Origin: Insolitispirillum peregrinum
GTDB taxonomy: Bacteria > Pseudomonadota > Alphaproteobacteria > Rhodospirillales > Rhodospirillaceae
NCBI RefSeq assembly: GCF_900156605.1
Contig: NZ_FTOA01000001.1
Coordinates: 186,001 to 250,000, forward strand
DNA: 64,000 nt
Direction: 5' to 3'
Shown one piece after another: positions 2,157-61,660 of this stretch (position 1 is its first letter; each line of letters begins with the position of its first letter). The position numbers and the translations under genes were made by a program. The notes below the pieces were generated by a model. It searched no databases. It was not told the DNA's origin and saw only the letters and a program-made list of their open reading frames with translations.

Positions 2157-3041
2157 TCACGATTTGCGCATCACGAGATAGATGCCTGCAATGGCCAGCA
2201 GCATCCCCGGAATGGCGGTCAGGGCGAAGGGTTCGCCCAGCACCACAAAGGCGATGATAGCCGTTAATGGTGGGACGAGGAAGAACAGCGCTGAAACCCG
2301 CGATGCTTCGCCATGACGGACCATCGCGAGCAGGAGCGAAATGGCGAGCAAGGAATTTCCGAAGACTAGATAGCTCAGGGAACCGATGAGCGGCCATGAC
2401 CATGTGACGGTCATTGGTTCAAGGCAATAGGCCAGCGGGGCGGCAATAGCCAGGCCTATTGAATACTGCACAAGGTTTGCGGCAAGCGGATGCGTTGGAA
2501 CGGAGAACCGCTTTTCCGTCAGGGTACTGGCCGCCATGGAAAACAGCGCCAAAACACCGAACAGGATGCCGACAGGGGATGTTGCCGTCGTGGTTGCATT
2601 GGCGAGAATGACGATTGCCGCGCCGCTCACCCCGAGGATCAGGCCAAGCCAGCGTGTCCGTGACACCCGTTCCCCGGCGAGGGTGGGGGCCAGCAGGCCC
2701 ATCAGGATGGGCTGTTGGCTGGTGATCAGGGCGACCGCCCCAGCCGTGAGGCCGTAGCGCAGGCTGAGGTAGGTAAAGGCAAAATACCCGGCTTGCAGAA
2801 ACAGGCCGACGCCGATCAGGGCTCCCCATCCTCGTTTTGTTGATGGAAACACGGGCCTGATCAGAAGTATCGGAATGAGCAGCGCGCCGACAACAAGGAC
2901 ATATCTCAGTGCCAGAAATGTCAGGGGATCAGCATAGGCAAGCCCCATTTTGAGAAAAACAAAGCCGCTTGCCCAGAGAATCAGGAAAACAGCGGGGAAA
3001 AATGCCCTGTATTTCTGAATTTGAGGTGCCTCATGTATCAA
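2157..3041 (-). CDS. EamA/DMT-family transporter
   Basis: This 294-residue, very hydrophobic inner-membrane protein has about ten predicted transmembrane helices in two EamA repeats. Typical features are FLILWASGFVFLKMGL in helix 1, ALITSQQPILMGLLAP near the end of the first repeat, and FLVPPLTAIIAFVVLGE with GIYLVMRKS in the second. EamA proteins export small metabolites such as amino acids or nucleosides; the substrate cannot be read here. It stands alone, convergent with tRNA-Glu and downstream of the rne terminator region. No adjacent regulator gives a clue. Confidence 0.85.
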   Translation of the reverse strand: MIHEAPQIQKYRAFFPAVFLILWASGFVFLKMGLAYADPLTFLALRYVLVVGALLIPILLIRPVFPSTKRGWGALIGVGLFLQAGYFAFTYLSLRYGLTAGAVALITSQQPILMGLLAPTLAGERVSRTRWLGLILGVSGAAIVILANATTTATSPVGILFGVLALFSMAASTLTEKRFSVPTHPLAANLVQYSIGLAIAAPLAYCLEPMTVTWSWPLIGSLSYLVFGNSLLAISLLLAMVRHGEASRVSALFFLVPPLTAIIAFVVLGEPFALTAIPGMLLAIAGIYLVMRKS

Positions 3042-3096
3042 GAGCGCAAGCTATGATCATGCGGAAGGCAATCGCTAAATTCTATCTGAAAAAGTA

Positions 3097-3150
3097 CCGG
3101 GGCCTGGGGCCTCAAGGCCCCAGCGGGGTGTGGGGCGGAGCCACACGACT
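3097..3150. repeat. Degenerate half-copy of repeat module R3
   Basis: The stretch GGGGCCTCAAGGCCCCAGC followed by a GTGTGG...CCACAC hairpin matches the right half of the R3 elements near 16010, 46450 and 60210. The TIR-like ends are missing, so this looks like a decayed fragment. Confidence 0.5.
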
Positions 3151-3178
3151 TTTTCCTCTTCCCCTTCCCCGCAGGCAT

Positions 3179-11105: not shown

Positions 11106-11113
11106 TCCCGCTT

Positions 11114-11276
11114 GCATCGCACGAAAACCTGTTCTCCCTTTTCGTGCGATGCGGGGATGATGATCTGCCGCATCGCTGGTACGAAAACCGGTTCCCACTT
11201 TTCGTGCGATGCGGGGATGATGATCTGTCGCATCGCTGATACGAAAACCGGTTCCCACTTTTCGTGCGATGCTCTA
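11114..11276 (+). repeat. Three tandem 60 bp R1-type hairpins between PBP1A and prfB
   Basis: Three hairpins recur at a 60 bp period, at 11114-11152, 11170-11212 and 11230-11272. The first has a perfect 14 bp stem (GCATCGCACGAAAA against TTTTCGTGCGATGC). The second and third carry the R1 core ACCGGTTCCCACTTTTCG. Units two and three are almost identical, which suggests recent tandem duplication. No T-run follows, so these are not classical terminators, though they could stabilise the 3' end of the PBP mRNA. Confidence 0.9.
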
Positions 11277-11327
11277 AATAAAAATACCACCCGTTCCCGA
11301 TACGATTAGCAAACGGATACCCAAACA

Positions 11328-15770: not shown

Positions 15771-15873
15771 AGCAAATCCCGAGCATATGGGTCCATCTGC
15801 GATGACGTATTTGCTGAAAATACAAGACATTAGAGCATTTAAAGTGATCCAGAGAGAACGGAAAATGCTCTAG
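15768..15873. repeat. Repeat module R4, copy 1
   Basis: This ~106 bp unit starts TAGAGCAAATCCCGAGC and ends GAAAATGCTCTA. It has two internal palindromes: AGCAAAT...ATTTGCT and AGAGCATTT...AAATGCTCT. A direct-orientation copy lies at 16098-16202. It begins on the stop codon of the DUF2336 gene. Confidence 0.9.
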
Positions 15874-16098
15874 AGCAGCGTGCGTTAAACCTGACGCCAC
15901 AGTATACGACAGTCGGGAAGCAAGAGCGGGCCACCGCCTGGACCCGTTTGGGGCCTGAGGCCCCAATCCCCCATTTTTTCTTTGAATTCAAAGGAATGGG
16001 GTCTGGGGCCGATTGGCCCCAGCGAGGTTTGGAGCAGCGCTCCATGATCTTGTTTTCTGTTTGTCGTGTACTGTGATGTGACGCAGGTACAATGCCCT
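15871..16098. repeat. R2 hairpin split by R3 element, copy 1
   Basis: The left R2 arm (TAGAGCAGCGTGCGTTAAACC) is followed by TGACG, then the R3 inverted end CCACAGTATACGACAG. R3 carries GGGGCCTGAGGCCCC, CCCCATTTTTTC...AAAGGAATGGGG, CTGGGGCCGATTGGCCCCAG and GGAGCAGCGCTCC hairpins, ends TGTCGTGTACTGTGATG, and is followed by TGACG and the right R2 arm. The TGACG on both sides looks like a target-site duplication. Confidence 0.85.
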
Positions 16099-24784: not shown

Positions 24785-26492
24785 CGCGGGCCAGGGTCAG
24801 TTCATCGACACGGGGGGTCATCTTGACTGCCTCCTTGCTGGCCCACAGGTTCATCTGGAAATACAGCGGGATTTGTCCCAGATCGTTGATGCCGTCGGCC
24901 ATCGCTTTCTGGATCAGCCCCCGGCGCTTTTCGGCATCCAGCTCATGGTCGGCGGCAATGACCAGATCATCAAGACTTTTGTTGGAATAGCGGTTGTGGT
25001 TGGCCGTCCCCAGTCCCTTGTCGACATCACGGGTGGCGAGCAGGGCCTTGATCGAGTAACCGGCTTCGCCGGTATCGCTGCTCCAGCCGCGCAGGGTAAA
25101 GCTGAAATCGCGGTTTTTGTTACGGGGGAAAAATTCGCTGGCCGGCATGGTTTCGGCGGTGGTGGCAAGCCCCGCGCCGGTCAGCATCAGGGCGACCGAG
25201 CTGGCGACTTCGGCATCACGGACATAGCGGTTGTTCGGGCCGTGCAGGACGGTGGTAAAGCCCTTGGGGTAGCCTGCTTCGGCCAGCAGCGTGCGGGCGG
25301 CGGGCAGGTTGAACGGTTCGGGTTTCAGGGACGGGTTGGCGCCGTCCATGTCGTCGGGGATCAACTGCCCCGCCGGAACCGCCTGCCCATAGAGTAGTTC
25401 GTCAATGATGGCTTGCCGGTTGATCGCCTTGCTGATCGCCTGACGGACTTTTAACGACTGGAACGGGTTGGTCGGCAGCGGAGTGTTCTGGCGGTCGCGG
25501 GCGAACGGGGTTTGCGGGCGGTCAAAGTCAACCGACAGGTAAATCACCCGGTTGGAAACGGCCTTGGCGAGTTTCAGTTGCGGATTGCTTTCCAGCCGGT
25601 GGACATCGGCTGGCGGCACTGCATTGATCAGGTCAACCGTGCCGCTGATCAGGGCCGTCACGCGGTCGGCATCGTTGGGGATGAAGCGGATTTCCACCGT
25701 ATCCCATGCCGGTTTTCCACCCCAGTAGTGCGGGTTGGCGGTCAGGGTCAGGGTGTGGCCGGGGCTCCCCTCGCTGTAGCGGTAGGGGCCGGTCCCGATC
25801 AGGGCCTTGCCGTTGTCAAAATCGGCGGTGGCGGTGTTCTGGACCTCGGCGGGGATGATCATCACCTGCGTCAGATAGACCGGCAGCAGGGGAAAGGGGC
25901 CGTTGGTGGTCAACTGGATGGTATAGGGATCGAGAACCTTGATCTCCTTGACCACTTCGGTATAGACGGTGAACGACGACGGGCCGTGGACCGTCGGCAC
26001 CCGTGCCCAGGATGCCAGCACGTCATTGGCATCAAAGGTGCTGCCGTCGTGAAAGGTGACTCCCTTGCGCAGCTTGAATTCCCAGGTATCCGGGCCGGTC
26101 GCTTTCCATGATTCGGCAAGGCCGGGAACCGGATGCTGCCGTTCGTCCAGATCAACCAGCGTGTCGTAAATGTGATGGCTGATGGTCAGGTTCGGTGCCA
26201 GATTGTGGTGGTAAGGGTCCAGGCTGTCCGGGGTGGTGCTGAGCGCCATCACCAGTTGATGCGGTGCAGCATCTGCGGCGTGGGCAAGAGAATCTGCCCC
26301 GGCCAACAATGAAACCAGCAGAACCAGTTGATGCGGTGCAGCATCTGCGGCGTGGGCAAGAGAATCTGCCCCGGCCAACAATGAAACCAGCAGAGACGTT
26401 GCGCCGAACAGGTTTTTCACCTTGGTTTGGCCCATGAAAAATGATGGAGTCACAGCCTGATATCCCCTTTTCCTTGTCAGAGCAGGCGCCAT
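24765..26492 (-). CDS. ABC-type peptide/solute-binding protein, family 5
   Basis: This is a periplasmic substrate-binding protein of the SBP_bac_5 family (oligopeptide, dipeptide or nickel type). Recognisable blocks are TPDSLDPYHHN, ISHHIYDTLVDLDERQHPVPGLAESW, WEFKLRKGVTFHDGSTFDANDV, LIGTGPYRYSEGSPG, FQSLKVRQAISKAINRQAII and LLAEAGYPKGF. At 575 residues it is slightly longer than usual because the signal peptide carries a perfect 24-residue tandem duplication. ATG 26492 has GAGG nine bases upstream; GTG 26453 and ATG 26435 are shorter options. No permease or ATPase genes are nearby, so this is an orphan binding protein coupled to the histidine kinase gene, perhaps a sensor accessory. The ligand is unknown. 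Confidence 0.9.
   Translation of the reverse strand: MAPALTRKRGYQAVTPSFFMGQTKVKNLFGATSLLVSLLAGADSLAHAADAAPHQLVLLVSLLAGADSLAHAADAAPHQLVMALSTTPDSLDPYHHNLAPNLTISHHIYDTLVDLDERQHPVPGLAESWKATGPDTWEFKLRKGVTFHDGSTFDANDVLASWARVPTVHGPSSFTVYTEVVKEIKVLDPYTIQLTTNGPFPLLPVYLTQVMIIPAEVQNTATADFDNGKALIGTGPYRYSEGSPGHTLTLTANPHYWGGKPAWDTVEIRFIPNDADRVTALISGTVDLINAVPPADVHRLESNPQLKLAKAVSNRVIYLSVDFDRPQTPFARDRQNTPLPTNPFQSLKVRQAISKAINRQAIIDELLYGQAVPAGQLIPDDMDGANPSLKPEPFNLPAARTLLAEAGYPKGFTTVLHGPNNRYVRDAEVASSVALMLTGAGLATTAETMPASEFFPRNKNRDFSFTLRGWSSDTGEAGYSIKALLATRDVDKGLGTANHNRYSNKSLDDLVIAADHELDAEKRRGLIQKAMADGINDLGQIPLYFQMNLWASKEAVKMTPRVDELTLARDAVPVR
26251..26394. repeat. Perfect in-frame 72 bp tandem duplication in a signal peptide
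   Basis: Bases 26251-26322 and 26323-26394 are identical over 72 bp, each beginning ACCAGTTGATGCGGTGCAGC on the plus strand. On the coding strand this doubles LLVSLLAGADSLAHA plus the following nine residues, including the probable signal-peptidase site after AHA. Confidence 0.98.
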
Positions 26493-42561: not shown

Positions 42562-42862
42562 GGCCCGCACAGGCGGGAACCGGTTTTGCGCATCATCACT
42601 GGGGCAGATCAAAAGGTTAGACCAGTGTGCCTGCGCCAGACCATGGTACACGACAGTTGAAGAAGAATGGCGGACTGCCGTCCGCACCTGCCCGGGGGGC
42701 GATGCCCCCGGACCCCCGTTTTTTCTTTTATGATCAAAGAAATGGGGGGCGGAGCCTCAAGGCCCTGGCGAGGTTTGGAGCAGCGCTCCATGATCTTTTT
42801 GTTTTTTGTCGTGTACCGTGACGTCACATTTAACGCACACTGGTCCAGGGCGTGCGGGGACA
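42562..42862. repeat. R1-R2-R3 composite repeat
   Basis: Partial R1 (GGCGGGAACCGGTTTTGCGC), then R2 left arm TTAGACCAGTGTGCCTGCG, then R3 from GGTACACGACAGTTG to TTGTCGTGTACCGTGA with internal GGGGGGCGATGCCCCC, TTTCTTTTATGATCAAAGAAA and GGAGCAGCGCTCC hairpins, then CGTCA and the R2 right arm TTTAACGCACACTGGTCC. R3 is in the same place in R2 as at 15892. It fills the whole gap before the YqeB-like gene, so that gene's promoter is probably inside repeat DNA. Confidence 0.88.
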
Positions 42863-42879: not shown

Positions 42880-43734
42880 ATGGATGCCTATGGCATATCG
42901 GTGATTGTGCGGGGAACTGGCGAATACGGCTCGGCCATTGCGCGCGAGTTGTTTCTGGCCGGGAATGCGGTGGTATTGCAACAAAGCACACCGCCTGCTG
43001 AAATCCGTCGTCTCCGTTGCTTTAGTGATGCCTGGTTCTGTTCTCCCGGACCTTTTGCGATGGCCAGCCTGAGCGGTGCCCAGCTGGAGGGCGTCTTTGC
43101 CCGTCGGGTGGACAGCCCGGCGACCCTGACCGCCTGTCTGGGACGGCGCGAGGCCATTCCGCTGGCCGCCATGCCGCTGGAGCATGTGATCAGTGCCTGG
43201 CCATGGGCTGTTCTGGTTGATGCCCGGATGCTGAGGGCACCGGCAAAGCCTCAACGCCATCTTGCGGGGCTGACCATCGGGTTGGGGGGCGGCTTTCTGG
43301 GGGGCGAAACGGTTGATCTGGTGATTGGCTGTGACGATCAGAACCCCGGCGCGTTCGTTCCCACCGGTCACTGTCTGCCATTCCCGCAAGAAGAAAGTGG
43401 TCCCCTGCGCACGGTGTGCCGGGCGCCGCATGATGGCATCTTTCACACGGCGGCGCGGATTGGTGATCGGGTGTCACCGGGCGAAACGATCGGTTGGGTG
43501 GGGGCCAGCGAAATCCGTATCCCCGACCATGCGCCGCAGAACAGCCTGATCCGTGGCTTGCCCCGTGACGGGGCAACGGTGCGGGATAGTGACGAAATTC
43601 TGGATCTGGCTCCACCGGGGAGTCGGGTCAGTGGGGTCAGCGTCAAGGCGCGGACCATCACCCGGGCGGTGATGCTGGCGATTGCCTCGGATGGCGAGCC
43701 GATCCACGATTTCCTGTTGCGTCATTGGCGCTGA
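42880..43734 (+). CDS. YqeB-like molybdenum-hydroxylase accessory protein
   Basis: This 284-residue cytoplasmic protein resembles the EF2563/YqeB family linked to selenium-dependent molybdenum hydroxylases and related to XdhC. Blocks are SVIVRGTGEYGSAIARELFLAGNAVVL with a nucleotide-binding turn, CFSDAWF, WAVLVDARM, LTIGLGGGFLGGETVDLVI and RAPHDGIFHTAARIGDRVSPGE. The family is thought to help mature the enzyme's cofactor. ATG 42880 has GGGG upstream. No molybdenum hydroxylase, selD or xdh gene is in the window, so the partner must be elsewhere. The 3' end overlaps the convergent DMT gene by 13 bases within an 18 bp tandem repeat. Confidence 0.72.
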   Translation: MDAYGISVIVRGTGEYGSAIARELFLAGNAVVLQQSTPPAEIRRLRCFSDAWFCSPGPFAMASLSGAQLEGVFARRVDSPATLTACLGRREAIPLAAMPLEHVISAWPWAVLVDARMLRAPAKPQRHLAGLTIGLGGGFLGGETVDLVIGCDDQNPGAFVPTGHCLPFPQEESGPLRTVCRAPHDGIFHTAARIGDRVSPGETIGWVGASEIRIPDHAPQNSLIRGLPRDGATVRDSDEILDLAPPGSRVSGVSVKARTITRAVMLAIASDGEPIHDFLLRHWR

Positions 43735-44738
43735 GCGGGTTGGGGGCGCTGAGCGGGCTGGGGGCGCTGAACGGGTTGGGCGTACTTTCTGGCTCCGGCG
43801 ACGCAGGCCACGGCGGCGAGCGTCGCCAGCAGCATGGTGCTGCTGACCGTTTCGTGCAGCAGCAGCGCGGCCAGCGCCAGCGCCATGAAGGGTTGGGTCA
43901 ATTGTAATTGCCCGACAGCGGCGATACCACCCTGTGCCAGCCCGCGATACCAGAACATGAACCCGATCAACATGCTGAACAGCGAGACATAGGCCAGCCC
44001 GAGCCATGCCGTGGGGCTGATATGGCTGAACGAGGCTGGCTGGGTCAGCAGCGCCAGTGGTAACATGACCGGCAAGGCCACCAGCAGCGACCAGCAGATG
44101 ACCTGCCAGCCTCCCAGGGTCCGCGACAGGCGCGCGCCTTCAGCATAGCCGAGGCCGCACACAAGGATTGCCGCCAGCATCAGCGCATCGCCGGCCAGCG
44201 ATGCCTCGGCGTTTCCACTCAGCGCATAGCCTGCGACACAGGTCGCGCCCAGAACCGAAAACAGCCAGAACAGGGGCTGGGGCCGTTCCCCGCCACGCAG
44301 AACGGCGAAAATCGCCGTACACAGGGGCAACAGACCGATAAACACAATCGAATGGGCGGAGCTGATCTGCTGCAAGGCCAGTGCGGTCAACAGCGGGAAA
44401 CCGACCACCACCCCCAACGCTCCCAGTGCCAGAGACGGCACATCGGCAGCCCGTGGGCGAGGCTGACGCCGCAGCAGCAACAGGGCGCACCCCAGCAGCG
44501 CCGCAATCGAGGCACGGGCGCAGGTCAGAAATGTGGGATCAAAATCGATCACTGCCACCCGCGTTGCAGGCAGTGACCCGGCAAAAATCGCCACCCCCAA
44601 AAATCCGTTGATCCAGCCGCTAGACCAGCGTGCGTTAAACCTGACGCAGGCACGCTGGTCTAACCTTTTGTTCTGTCGCATTGTTTTTGCGAAAACCGGT
44701 TCCCGTTTTTCGCACAATGCTCTGGTCGTTTTGTCCAT
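43722..44738 (-). CDS. EamA/DMT-family exporter with repeat-encoded N-terminus
   Basis: This inner-membrane metabolite exporter has two EamA repeats and about ten helices (INGFLGVAIFAGSLPATRVAV, FLTCARASIAALLGCALLL, FIGLLPLCTAIFAVLRGGE, LTQPFMALALAALLLHETVSS). It is divergent from a MocR regulator, so MocR probably controls it. The credible start is ATG 44738, with AAAGG upstream (MDKTTRAL...); from there the frame runs through a complete R1-R2 repeat before reaching the first helix. No ATG lies between the repeat and helix 1, only TTG and GTG codons. Either ~34 residues are encoded by the repeat, or the native start was displaced. The C-terminus ends in repeated Gln-Arg-Pro units. Confidence 0.78.
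   Translation of the reverse strand: MDKTTRALCEKREPVFAKTMRQNKRLDQRACVRFNARWSSGWINGFLGVAIFAGSLPATRVAVIDFDPTFLTCARASIAALLGCALLLLRRQPRPRAADVPSLALGALGVVVGFPLLTALALQQISSAHSIVFIGLLPLCTAIFAVLRGGERPQPLFWLFSVLGATCVAGYALSGNAEASLAGDALMLAAILVCGLGYAEGARLSRTLGGWQVICWSLLVALPVMLPLALLTQPASFSHISPTAWLGLAYVSLFSMLIGFMFWYRGLAQGGIAAVGQLQLTQPFMALALAALLLHETVSSTMLLATLAAVACVAGARKYAQPVQRPQPAQRPQPAQRQ
43727..43780. repeat. Three 18 bp tandem repeats at a convergent gene overlap
   Basis: GGCGCTGAGCGGGTTGGG is repeated three times (43727-43744, 43745-43762, 43763-43780) with one or two changes. It encodes the C-terminal Pro-Gln-Pro-Ala-Gln-Arg repeats of the DMT protein on the minus strand and contains the YqeB stop codon on the plus strand. 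Confidence 0.93.
44621..44724. repeat. Intact 104 bp R1-R2 unit inside the DMT reading frame
   Basis: The R2 hairpin TAGACCAGCGTGCG...CGCACGCTGGTCTA is uninterrupted here, showing the empty R3 target (AACCTGACGCAGG). R1 follows, TTTTTGCGAAAACCGG... to CGCACAATGCTC. Length equals 26597-26700. Confidence 0.93.
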
Positions 44739-44837
44739 GGTCGGGGCCTTTTGCCTTCTGTGGTCTTCTTGTGAGGGAGACTGTCGGGGACAGACAGAGC
44801 AATAAAGCATTGTGGAACTGGTCATGCCAGATACGGT

Positions 44838-44887
44838 CCAGTACAATTGGAAAGAACTGTTATGGATGTAAGGCCAGTACGATTGGA
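44838..44887 (+). promoter_or_regulatory. Direct-repeat MocR operator
   Basis: CCAGTACAATTGGA (44838-44851) and CCAGTACGATTGGA (44874-44887) are direct repeats 36 bases apart (start to start) in the divergent region, the second ending six bases before the MocR start. MocR regulators bind such paired direct repeats. Confidence 0.7.
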
Positions 44888-44892
44888 GACCC

Positions 44893-46272
44893 ATGGAACG
44901 GAGTGGAACACGGATCGAGGCGGTGATGACCGAAATCCGCTCGCGGATTGCCGCGCGCCTGTATTTGCCCGGCACGCGATTGCCGTCGGTGCGGGCGCAG
45001 GCGCAGGCGATGAAGGTTTCGGTTTCGACGGTGGTCGAAGCCTATGACCGCCTGAGCGCCGAGGGCGCCATTGCTGCCCGTCCGGGATCGGGTTTCTATG
45101 TGGTGGGGCCGGTGGCTCCGTTGGCGCTGGCCCACCTTGGCCCCAGCCTTGATCGGGCGATTGATCCGTTGTGGGTGTCGCGCCAGTCACTGGAAAGCGA
45201 TGCGTCGGTTCTGAAGCCCGGATGTGGCTGGATGCCGCCGGACTGGCTGTATGAAACCGGGGTGCGCCGGGCGTTGCGGGCGCTGGCACGGGGGCCGGTG
45301 GCCGAGTTGACCGATTACGCCACATCGCTGGGGCATCCGGGATTGCGCCAGTTCCTGCAACGACGGTTGGCGGGGGCAGGGATCGAGGCCGGGGCGGAGC
45401 AGATCATGCTGACGGAATCGGGTACGCAGGCGATCGACCTGATTTGCCGGTTCCTGCTGGAGCCGGGCGATACGGTGCTGGTCGATGACCCGTGCTATTT
45501 CAACTTTCATGCCTTGCTGAAGGCCCACCGGGTGCGGACTCTCGGGGTGCCTTATACGCCGACCGGCCCGGATGTCGAGCGGTTCGAGGCTGCCGTGCAG
45601 GAGCATTCTCCCCGGTTGTACATCACCAACTCGGGTATCCACAATCCGACCGGCGCAACCCTGTCGCCGGTGACCGCGCACCGGCTGTTGACGCTGGCCG
45701 ACCGTGCCGGTCTGGTGATTGTCGAGGATGATATCTGGGCTGATTTCGAGACCACCCCGGCCCCCCGGCTGGCGGCCTTTGATGGCCTGTCGCGGGTGAT
45801 CCAGATTGGCAGCTTTTCCAAAACCATCTCGGCGTCGTTGCGCTGTGGCTATATTGCCGCGCAACCAGGCTGGATTGACAATCTTGCCGATCTGAAGATT
45901 GCCACCACCTTTGGCGGCGGCCGCTTTGCCGCCGAAGTGGTGCTGCTGGCCCTGACCGACAGCGGCTATCGCAAGCATATGGAGATGGTGCGCCAGCGGT
46001 TGGCCGAGCAGATGCGGAAAACCATCACCCGCCTTGAGCCGTTGGGAATTACGCCGTGGCTGGTTCCCCGCGCTGGTTTGTACCTGTGGTGCCAGCTGCC
46101 CGAAGGCCGGGATGCGGCAGCCATCGCGCAATCCTGCCTGAAGGGCGGGGTGGTGTTGGCACCCGGCAATGCCTTCAGCCCGTCGCTGAGTGCCGGGGGC
46201 TTTTTGCGCTTTAACGTCACCCAGTCCTCGGACGAGCGGGTGTTTACGGCGCTGGCGCGGGCGTTGGCCTGA
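44893..46272 (+). CDS. MocR/GntR-type regulator with aminotransferase domain
   Basis: This 459-residue transcription factor has an N-terminal winged helix of the GntR type (residues about 8-75: IAARLYLPGTRLPSVRAQAQ, VSVSTVVEAYDRLSAEGAI, RPGSGFYVV). A fold-type I aminotransferase-like domain follows, with DPCYFNFHALLKAHR, NSGIHNPTGATLSP, VEDDIWADF, and IGSFSKTISASLRCGYI with the PLP lysine K310. Such proteins sense PLP or an amino compound and usually control a divergent gene, here the DMT exporter. Direct repeats in the intergenic region are candidate binding sites. A start at ATG 44893 fits the conserved N-terminus. Confidence 0.92.
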   Translation: MERSGTRIEAVMTEIRSRIAARLYLPGTRLPSVRAQAQAMKVSVSTVVEAYDRLSAEGAIAARPGSGFYVVGPVAPLALAHLGPSLDRAIDPLWVSRQSLESDASVLKPGCGWMPPDWLYETGVRRALRALARGPVAELTDYATSLGHPGLRQFLQRRLAGAGIEAGAEQIMLTESGTQAIDLICRFLLEPGDTVLVDDPCYFNFHALLKAHRVRTLGVPYTPTGPDVERFEAAVQEHSPRLYITNSGIHNPTGATLSPVTAHRLLTLADRAGLVIVEDDIWADFETTPAPRLAAFDGLSRVIQIGSFSKTISASLRCGYIAAQPGWIDNLADLKIATTFGGGRFAAEVVLLALTDSGYRKHMEMVRQRLAEQMRKTITRLEPLGITPWLVPRAGLYLWCQLPEGRDAAAIAQSCLKGGVVLAPGNAFSPSLSAGGFLRFNVTQSSDERVFTALARALA

Positions 46273-46283
46273 GGGAATACGGC

Positions 46284-46545
46284 ACCAGACCAGCGTGCGT
46301 TAACTGTGACGCCACAGTGCACGACAGTTGGTGGAAAAGAATGGGCTATCGCCCAAACCCATTCGGGGCCTGAGGCCCCGACCATTCACTTGGGGGCGAT
46401 GCCCTCGAACCCCCATTTTCTCTTTTATGATCAAAGAAATGGGGTCTGGGGCCGACTGGCCCCAGCGAGGTGTGGAGCAGCGCTCCACGTCCTTGTTTCC
46501 CAACTGTCGTGTACTGTGGCATCAGGTTTTCAGCACGCTCGTCTA
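46284..46545. repeat. R2/R3 composite repeat between mocR-like gene and tamB
   Basis: R2 arm CCAGACCAGCGTGCGTTAA, TGACG, then the R3 end CCACAGTGCACGACAGTTGG; internal GGGGCCTGAGGCCCC, GGGGGCGATGCCCTCGAACC, CTGGGGCCGACTGGCCCCAG and GTGGAGCAGCGCTCCAC hairpins; right end CCAACTGTCGTGTACTGTG. The last three bases (CTA, TAG on the minus strand) are the tamB stop codon. Confidence 0.9.
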
Positions 46546-60027: not shown

Positions 60028-60306
60028 AAGTACGGATCGCTGCCTGCACCTGTTCGGGCGTCAATGTCCCTGGACCCCTTTACTATCAAAGGAATGGGGT
60101 CTGGGGCCTGGAGCGTTTTCACACCGAGCGAAAACGCTCTCTGTTTTTAGTGCCGCATTTTCCGAGCCGTTGACCGGAGACGGTCAACTTGAAAATGCTC
60201 TAAAGGCCCCAGCGAGGTGTGGAGCAGCGCTCCACATCCTTGTTTCCTGACTGTCGTGTACCGTGCATCTGCGCAAAACCGGTTCCCGCTTTTGCGCTTA
60301 CTGCTC
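60028..60306. repeat. R3 copy carrying an inserted R4-like unit, plus R1
   Basis: The R3 body (GCCTGCACCTG...GACCCCTTTACTATC...AAAGGAATGGGG) is interrupted in its CTGGGGCC/GGCCCCAG hairpin loop by about 95 bp beginning GGAGCGTTTTC and ending GAAAATGCTCTAAA, bounded like R4. R3 then resumes (GGCCCCAGCGAGGTGTGGAGC) to CTGACTGTCGTGTACCGTG. An R1 palindrome (GCGCAAAACCGG...TTTTGCGC) follows. The gap 59989-60305 contains little else. Confidence 0.85.
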
Positions 60307-61394: not shown

Positions 61395-61397
61395 TAT

Positions 61398-61660
61398 ACA
61401 AACCAGTTGAGAAACAAGGACGTGGAGCGCTGCTCCACACCTCGCTGGGGCCTTGAGGCCCCAGAGCCCATTCTTTTGATATTCAAAGAAAAATGGGGGT
61501 TCAGGGCCTAAGGCCCCGAGCGGTTTCAGGCGGCAGCCTGCACGGATTGAACCAACTGTCGTGTACTGTGATGTGACGCAGGCACGCTGGCCTAACCTTT
61601 TGACCTGTCGCAGTGATACCGCGCAAAACCGGAACCACTTTTTCGCACAACGCTCTAGTT
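61398..61660. repeat. R3-R2-R1 composite in reverse orientation
   Basis: Inverse R3: GAAACAAGGACGTGGAGCGC, CTGGGGCCTTGAGGCCCCAG, the ATTCTTTTGATATTCAAAG hairpin, GGGCCTAAGGCCC, then CCAACTGTCGTGTACTGTGATG, TGACG, the R2 arm CAGGCACGCTGGCCTAACC and R1 CGCGCAAAACCGG...TTTTTCGCACAACGCTCTA. The left TIR is truncated. The final CTA is the stop codon (TAG on minus) of the next gene. Confidence 0.88.

Follow-up and report, generated by a model that had tools for sequence, protein, structure and literature searches.

An EamA/DMT-family exporter gene of Insolitispirillum peregrinum, found in the window (the whole stretch of DNA analysed here, 64,000 nucleotides), carries a complete palindromic repeat between its only good start codon and the codons of helix 1. 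Does the repeat add residues to the exporter, or does it simply lie in front of the gene? A reading made from the letters alone (the sequence-only reading) had proposed that the repeat is read in frame as the N-terminus of the protein. We studied the proposal using orthologue comparison, a genome-wide model of the repeat, RNA folding and structure prediction.

Native start and insertion site

The exporter frame is free of stops for 338 codons, from the ATG at 44738 on the minus strand to 43722, with the 5' context CAAAAGGCCCCGACC-ATG. Hence the earlier claim that the frame is open through the complete repeat into helix 1 holds. The encoded protein begins with MDKTT, continues with 34 inserted residues, RALCEKREPVFAKTMRQNKRLDQRACVRFNARWS, and goes on with SGWINGFLGV. 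The 34 residues include 10 K/R and 3 D/E with a net charge of +7, and the description of this stretch as basic was correct.

We collected 80 orthologues by a profile search in named genomes, the nearest ones being from other genera. The start codon lies exactly 6 codons before the Gly41-Trp42 position in 52 of the 80, so the check proposed earlier, a start directly before helix 1 in orthologues, gives a positive result that fixes the native start as well. The orthologue N-termini include MDKTAS (9), MDRTAT (4) and MDKTTS (2), with MDKTAS-GW or MDKTTS-GW as the typical join. The Azotobacter vinelandii orthologue starts with MDKTTSGWINGFLGV, and the window gene minus 102 nt gives this same normal, orthologue-like N-terminus. 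The same-family orthologues L002 (MNRTLEGW) and L003 (VNKSANGW) are also without the 34 residues. Because MDKTT and SGWINGF flank the repeat and join into an orthologue N-terminus, the repeat is, on this comparison, inserted between native codons 5 and 6, 3' of the native operator region, ribosome site and ATG (Table 1). The start assigned by the sequence-only reading is supported by the ribosome site AAAAGG and by the match of MDKTT to orthologue N-termini. Its claim that the repeat forms the N-terminus stands in part: the translated frame does cross the repeat, but codons 1-5 are native, so the repeat accounts for a 34-residue insertion and not for a new N-terminus.

The upstream region points to the same start. 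A GTACTG/TTGTACT motif pair, likely the predicted operator of the divergent MocR-type regulator, is found 142 and 108 nt 5' of the exporter ATG. In many orthologues the pair is located ~100-107 and 65-72 nt 5' of the start, with an inter-motif distance about equal to that of the window, and this spacing is conserved across several proteobacterial genera. The location of the pair 5' of ATG 44738, as in the orthologues, argues against transcription initiating within the repeat, and a start 3' of the repeat would put the pair more than 200 bases away.

Table 1. Features of the exporter locus, in window positions
Feature	Positions	Strand	Basis
Full-length RIME-like palindromic element, 104 bp with end dinucleotides CA (left) and TA (right); net 102 bp = 34 codons	44621..44724	-	nhmmer full-length match; 102-bp arithmetic; genome copies
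Palindrome R1, hairpin AGAGCATTGTGCGAAAA...TTTTCGC...ACAATGC, plus start of linker	44672..44723	-	RNA fold; repeat alignment
Palindrome R2, TTAGACCAGCGTGC...GCACGCTGGTCTA	44621..44665	-	RNA fold; repeat alignment
EamA/DMT-family exporter ORF, 338 aa, repeat inside	43722..44738	-	Pfam EamA PF00892, E=4.6e-32; translation; orthologues 55-79% identical
Native start and codons 1-5, ATG GAC AAA ACG ACC = MDKTT	44724..44738	-	matches orthologue N-termini MDKTA/MDKTT
Probable ribosome-binding site AAAAGG, 8 nt 5' of ATG	44747..44752	-	sequence; inference
Codon AGC, native Ser resuming ...SGWINGFLG	44619..44621	-	orthologue comparison, e.g. Azotobacter vinelandii MDKTTSGWINGFLGV
Paired GTACTG / TTGTACT motifs, probable MocR-type operator	44840..44885	-	motif positions in window and orthologues
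Divergent MocR-type regulator (GntR + aminotransferase fold)	44893..46272	+	Pfam PF00392/PF00155; NCBIfam MocR-like models below cut-off

The repeat and its copies

The repeat is abundant in its own genome. A model built from 30 copies gave 126 matches in 1.65 Mb, and the window copy covers positions 2-104 of this model in nhmmer. About 40 near-full copies in the same genome are 90-96% identical to the window copy, far above chance. We counted 88 full copies in the examined parts of the genome (the 1.65 Mb and further stretches, together a part of the genome). The consensus is 104 bp long with the termini TAGAGC...GCTCTA, and the layout is R1, linker and R2, i.e. a mosaic of two palindromes, with R1-only tandem and interrupted variants also occurring. 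No Rfam family covers the repeat.

The ends of the copies fit a 2-bp target duplication with a preference for TA, as in a MITE-type element with terminal inverted repeats. The dinucleotides outside the 100-bp core are TA/TA in 30 copies, and in 9 of the 12 copies with non-TA on both sides the two ends are identical (CA/CA 4, TG/TG 3, GA/GA 2). A sizeable group of copies, including the one in the window, has CA/TA ends; for the window copy this means that either one side has changed or the target duplication was imperfect. The 100-bp core plus the 2-bp duplication lengthen the target by 102 bp net (34 codons), and hence the downstream frame is always kept. The consensus is stop-free in two of its six frames, one sense and one antisense. 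The frame used in the exporter is open in 39 of 61 copies, and the window copy differs from the consensus at 6% of the sites.

The window has several other repeats. At 42585-42848 a composite consists of the R1 palindrome and the start of R2, a GC-rich palindromic unit of ~190 bp, and then the R2 end (ATTTAACGCACACTGGTCCAG); the R2 loop seems to be host to a second repeat, making a mosaic of two families. This second family has palindromes of the GGGGCCTGAGGCCCC and TTGGAGCAGCGCTCCA types and is bordered by CAGTACACGACAG. It is found at 15867-16075, 46282-46518, 60079-60265, 61397-61541 and 3091-3154, and several of its copies are joined to R2 halves of the RIME-like element. Three tandem copies with a 60-nt period related to the R1 palindrome (CCGGTTCCCACTTTTCGTGCGATGC) are located at 11108-11287, and the genome has comparable R1 tandems at other places too. 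A perfect 72-nt tandem duplication, equal to 24 codons if coding, was observed at 26251-26394.

Other copies inside genes

Two more genes of this genome have an in-frame copy. One is a DASS-type anion transporter (C3:226531-226632; Pfam CitMHS and Na_sulph_symp), in which the insert stands between 245 and 217 codons of one reading frame; ~34 residues are absent at the insert site in seven homologues from other genomes and in a paralogue of the same genome. The other is an NrtR-like regulator (C15:440180; Pfam NrtR_WHD). Its insert is close to the N-terminus, at a position that corresponds to the Nudix-like part, and its closest homologues are without 34-35 residues at the insert point. In all three genic copies, i.e. 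those in the DMT exporter, the DASS transporter and the NrtR-like regulator, the frame is kept without a stop, the gene is conserved, and the homologues have a precise gap. The earlier comparison with the Rickettsia palindromic elements is therefore apt in kind, given these two further in-frame insertions.

The DASS and NrtR-like copies use the other sense frame, which is closed by a TAG in the consensus, and both read TGG at this codon. Of 73 copies with an identity to the consensus of 84% or more, TAG is found here in 60 and TGG in 10. The TGG in both genic copies fits what is expected from the survival of the readable variant, and is not proof of selection for TGG. The net length change is not divisible by 3 in 12 of 70 other high-identity copies versus none of the three genic ones.

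At least 3 of the 88 full copies are genic, which is a lower bound as insertions near gene ends may be missed and the genome was examined in part; most other copies were not found inside genes. A codon-usage screen gave many open frames through copies, the majority being antisense shadow frames or having a good start 3' of the repeat. Three copies with the same frame on both sides (C10:179239, C2:27949 and C10:517097) proved to be intergenic. The start lies 3' of the repeat in a chorismate-mutase-like gene (C3:167697) and in the HflX-adjacent case, and we rejected both as in-frame insertions. The partial element in the latter case (L240, C4:891800-895800, locus positions 1974-2049) abuts the start codon of an HflX-like GTPase and may supply its leader or start context. 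In L227 (C19:21100-27100, locus positions 3019-3121; C19:24118) a full element lies just 3' of one gene and is open into a second one, which has no good start codon 3' of the repeat; its start may lie within the element.

Probable translation of the insert and alternative explanations

Our analysis suggests the following course of events. A non-autonomous RIME-like palindromic element of the MITE type has entered the MocR-linked exporter gene between codons 5 and 6, and the operator region, ribosome-binding site and ATG, all 5' of the element, are native, as the orthologues show. The element adds 102 bp, consisting of the 100-bp core and a 2-bp direct repeat, mostly TA, with a stop-free consensus frame, and so keeps the downstream frame. 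Readthrough is expected since the net 102 bp keeps the frame and the frame used has no stop. A ribosome starting at the native ATG would thus read through the repeat, producing an exporter with a strongly basic 34-residue insert in the N-terminal tail before helix 1. The repeat inside the exporter is very probably translated in this way, judging from the sequence. Most likely the exporter tolerates the insert as a near-neutral extension of a flexible tail, rather than keeping it as a selected new domain. By the same route the element has entered, in frame, at least two other conserved genes. We regard this reading as a whole, from insertion at codons 5/6 to readthrough with a basic insert that is likely tolerated and near-neutral, as highly likely.

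Two alternatives concern the place of initiation. If the repeat were a 5' leader only, translation would begin at TTG47 or GTG49 and the protein would have zero repeat-encoded residues. These two codons are in frame, and are the only in-frame starts 3' of the repeat near helix 1. However, both are inside helix 1 without a preceding ribosome site, and such a start would leave out G41, W42 and G45, three residues without variation in 36 aligned orthologues; this counts against initiation 3' of the repeat, and with the native MDKTT start and its ribosome site retained upstream we consider it extremely improbable. Initiation could also take place within the repeat, at the ATG of codon 20 (ACA-ATG-CGA), giving a shorter N-terminus that is still repeat-encoded. 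Such an in-frame ATG (M20) is present in the element, and initiation at codon 1 could suffer from the hairpin of the repeat. The predicted fold of this RNA is stable (-57.3 kcal/mol, fold z = -4.2), and the strong hairpin begins ~15 nt 3' of the first ATG. The ribosome site and the first ATG are mostly outside the strong stems and are intact, whereas M20 sits in the 3' arm of the R1 hairpin with no purine-rich site before it, which makes this start very unlikely. The hairpin of the insert could, by the fold model, lower translation.

The remaining alternatives concern the fate of the gene with its insert. The hairpin or the extra tail might abolish expression or membrane insertion, with the ORF being a young and still undecayed pseudogene. 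A strong RNA structure is predicted directly 3' of the start, and the orthologues for comparison, all from other genera, are too distant to test selection. Against this, the 298 downstream codons have no stop or frameshift though the element copy is already 6% off its consensus, the invariant columns are kept, and a basic cytoplasmic tail before helix 1 agrees with the positive-inside rule; we judge the pseudogene explanation unlikely. The opposite idea, that selection maintains the segment encoded by the repeat for a function such as regulation of the exporter or translational control via the hairpin, is quite unlikely as well. The segment is kept without indels and its RNA fold is strong, but the substitutions from the consensus appear unconstrained, in small numbers: the silent to changing counts are 2:4 in the exporter, 1:4 and 1:7 in the other two genes, and 127:236 in non-coding copies read in the exporter's frame. 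With counts this small, the inserts show no sign of selection, and a tolerated neutral insertion is likely. In the AlphaFold model pLDDT stays below 50 for residues 1-15 and for the greater part of 19-25, and the exporter helices are well predicted. Such low values agree with a flexible basic tail, yet are partly expected as no orthologue row covers the insert.

Relation to known repeats

Full-length relatives with the same layout are found on Sphingobium plasmids (~78-83%) and on plasmids of Agrobacterium vitis / Allorhizobium ampelinum (~74%), while Rhizobium plasmids have half-length relatives and the genome's own family has divergent ones. Among the long open frames in the family genomes G079, G089, G013, G075, G033, G087 and G091 we found no convincing in-frame insertion by related repeats. 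On the Allorhizobium ampelinum plasmid pAtS4e (L278, positions 2001-2103) a related element supplies the last codons and the stop of an annotated thioesterase-domain gene; we did not accept it as a genic insertion, only the 3' end of the gene overlapping the element.

Rhizobium-specific intergenic mosaic elements (RIMEs; Osteras et al. 1995, cited in PMC2573895) likewise have two joined palindromes, a length of ~104 bp (104-108) and mosaic variants. The label RIME-like given by the sequence-only reading is supported by the two-palindrome architecture and by full-length copies of similar sequence from plasmids of Sphingobium and Agrobacterium/Allorhizobium. By definition RIMEs are Rhizobium-specific, and PMC2573895 treats them as intergenic, whereas our family is present in Sphingobium too, as well as in the genome's own family, and three of its copies are inside genes. 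Because the Rhizobium restriction and the intergenic location do not hold, we use the term RIME-like and do not file the repeat as a RIME; given its layout and the similar repeats on rhizobial plasmids, it may be related to RIMEs.

The Rickettsia palindromic elements are the type case of in-frame palindromic insertion (Ogata et al. 2000, 2002, reviewed in PMC2229807 and PMC10969869). They too are palindromic repeats, ~105-150 bp in length, which have inserted in frame within conserved protein genes and give rise to additional translated segments. PMC2229807 counts 19 insertions in genes, and for one of them a translated, active product has been demonstrated; according to PMC10969869 nearly half of those in R. 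conorii are genic, compared with at least 3 of the 88 full copies here. The repeats are unrelated, as judged by name and host only, and translation was shown for the Rickettsia gmk gene but is inferred for our exporter insert. The Wolbachia protein-coding palindromic repeats (Ogata et al. 2005, cited in PMC2229807) are also in-frame insertions in bacterial protein genes, but of an obligate endosymbiont, and their repeat is unrelated as far as known. The enterobacterial intragenic elements RU-1/ERIC, RU-2 and RU-3 (Delihas 2007, PMC2759123) and the 107-bp Neisseria Correia element (PMC2229807) are similar in being small MITEs, several of them TA-ended, whose open frames have become in-frame parts of host genes; they differ in repeat family and host. 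We found no report of in-frame insertion by RIME-like repeats in the searchable literature, the coverage of which is incomplete and makes this weak evidence of novelty.

Implications

The clean orthologue evidence indicates that a family resembling the 'intergenic' RIMEs can enter genes and extend proteins in frame, as known in Rickettsia and Wolbachia. With a length that is a multiple of three and two stop-free frames out of six, about one third of the genic insertions would leave a full-length product if phase and orientation are random. This makes the repeats a foreseeable origin of protein insertions, and also a reason why annotation places start codons wrongly. We speculate, with considerable doubt, that RIME-like elements could be a general protein-coding MITE family outside Rickettsiales, in which the TAG to TGG variant opens a third frame and insertions repeatedly lengthen membrane and regulatory proteins of the carriers. 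The three genes in one genome offer direct test cases.
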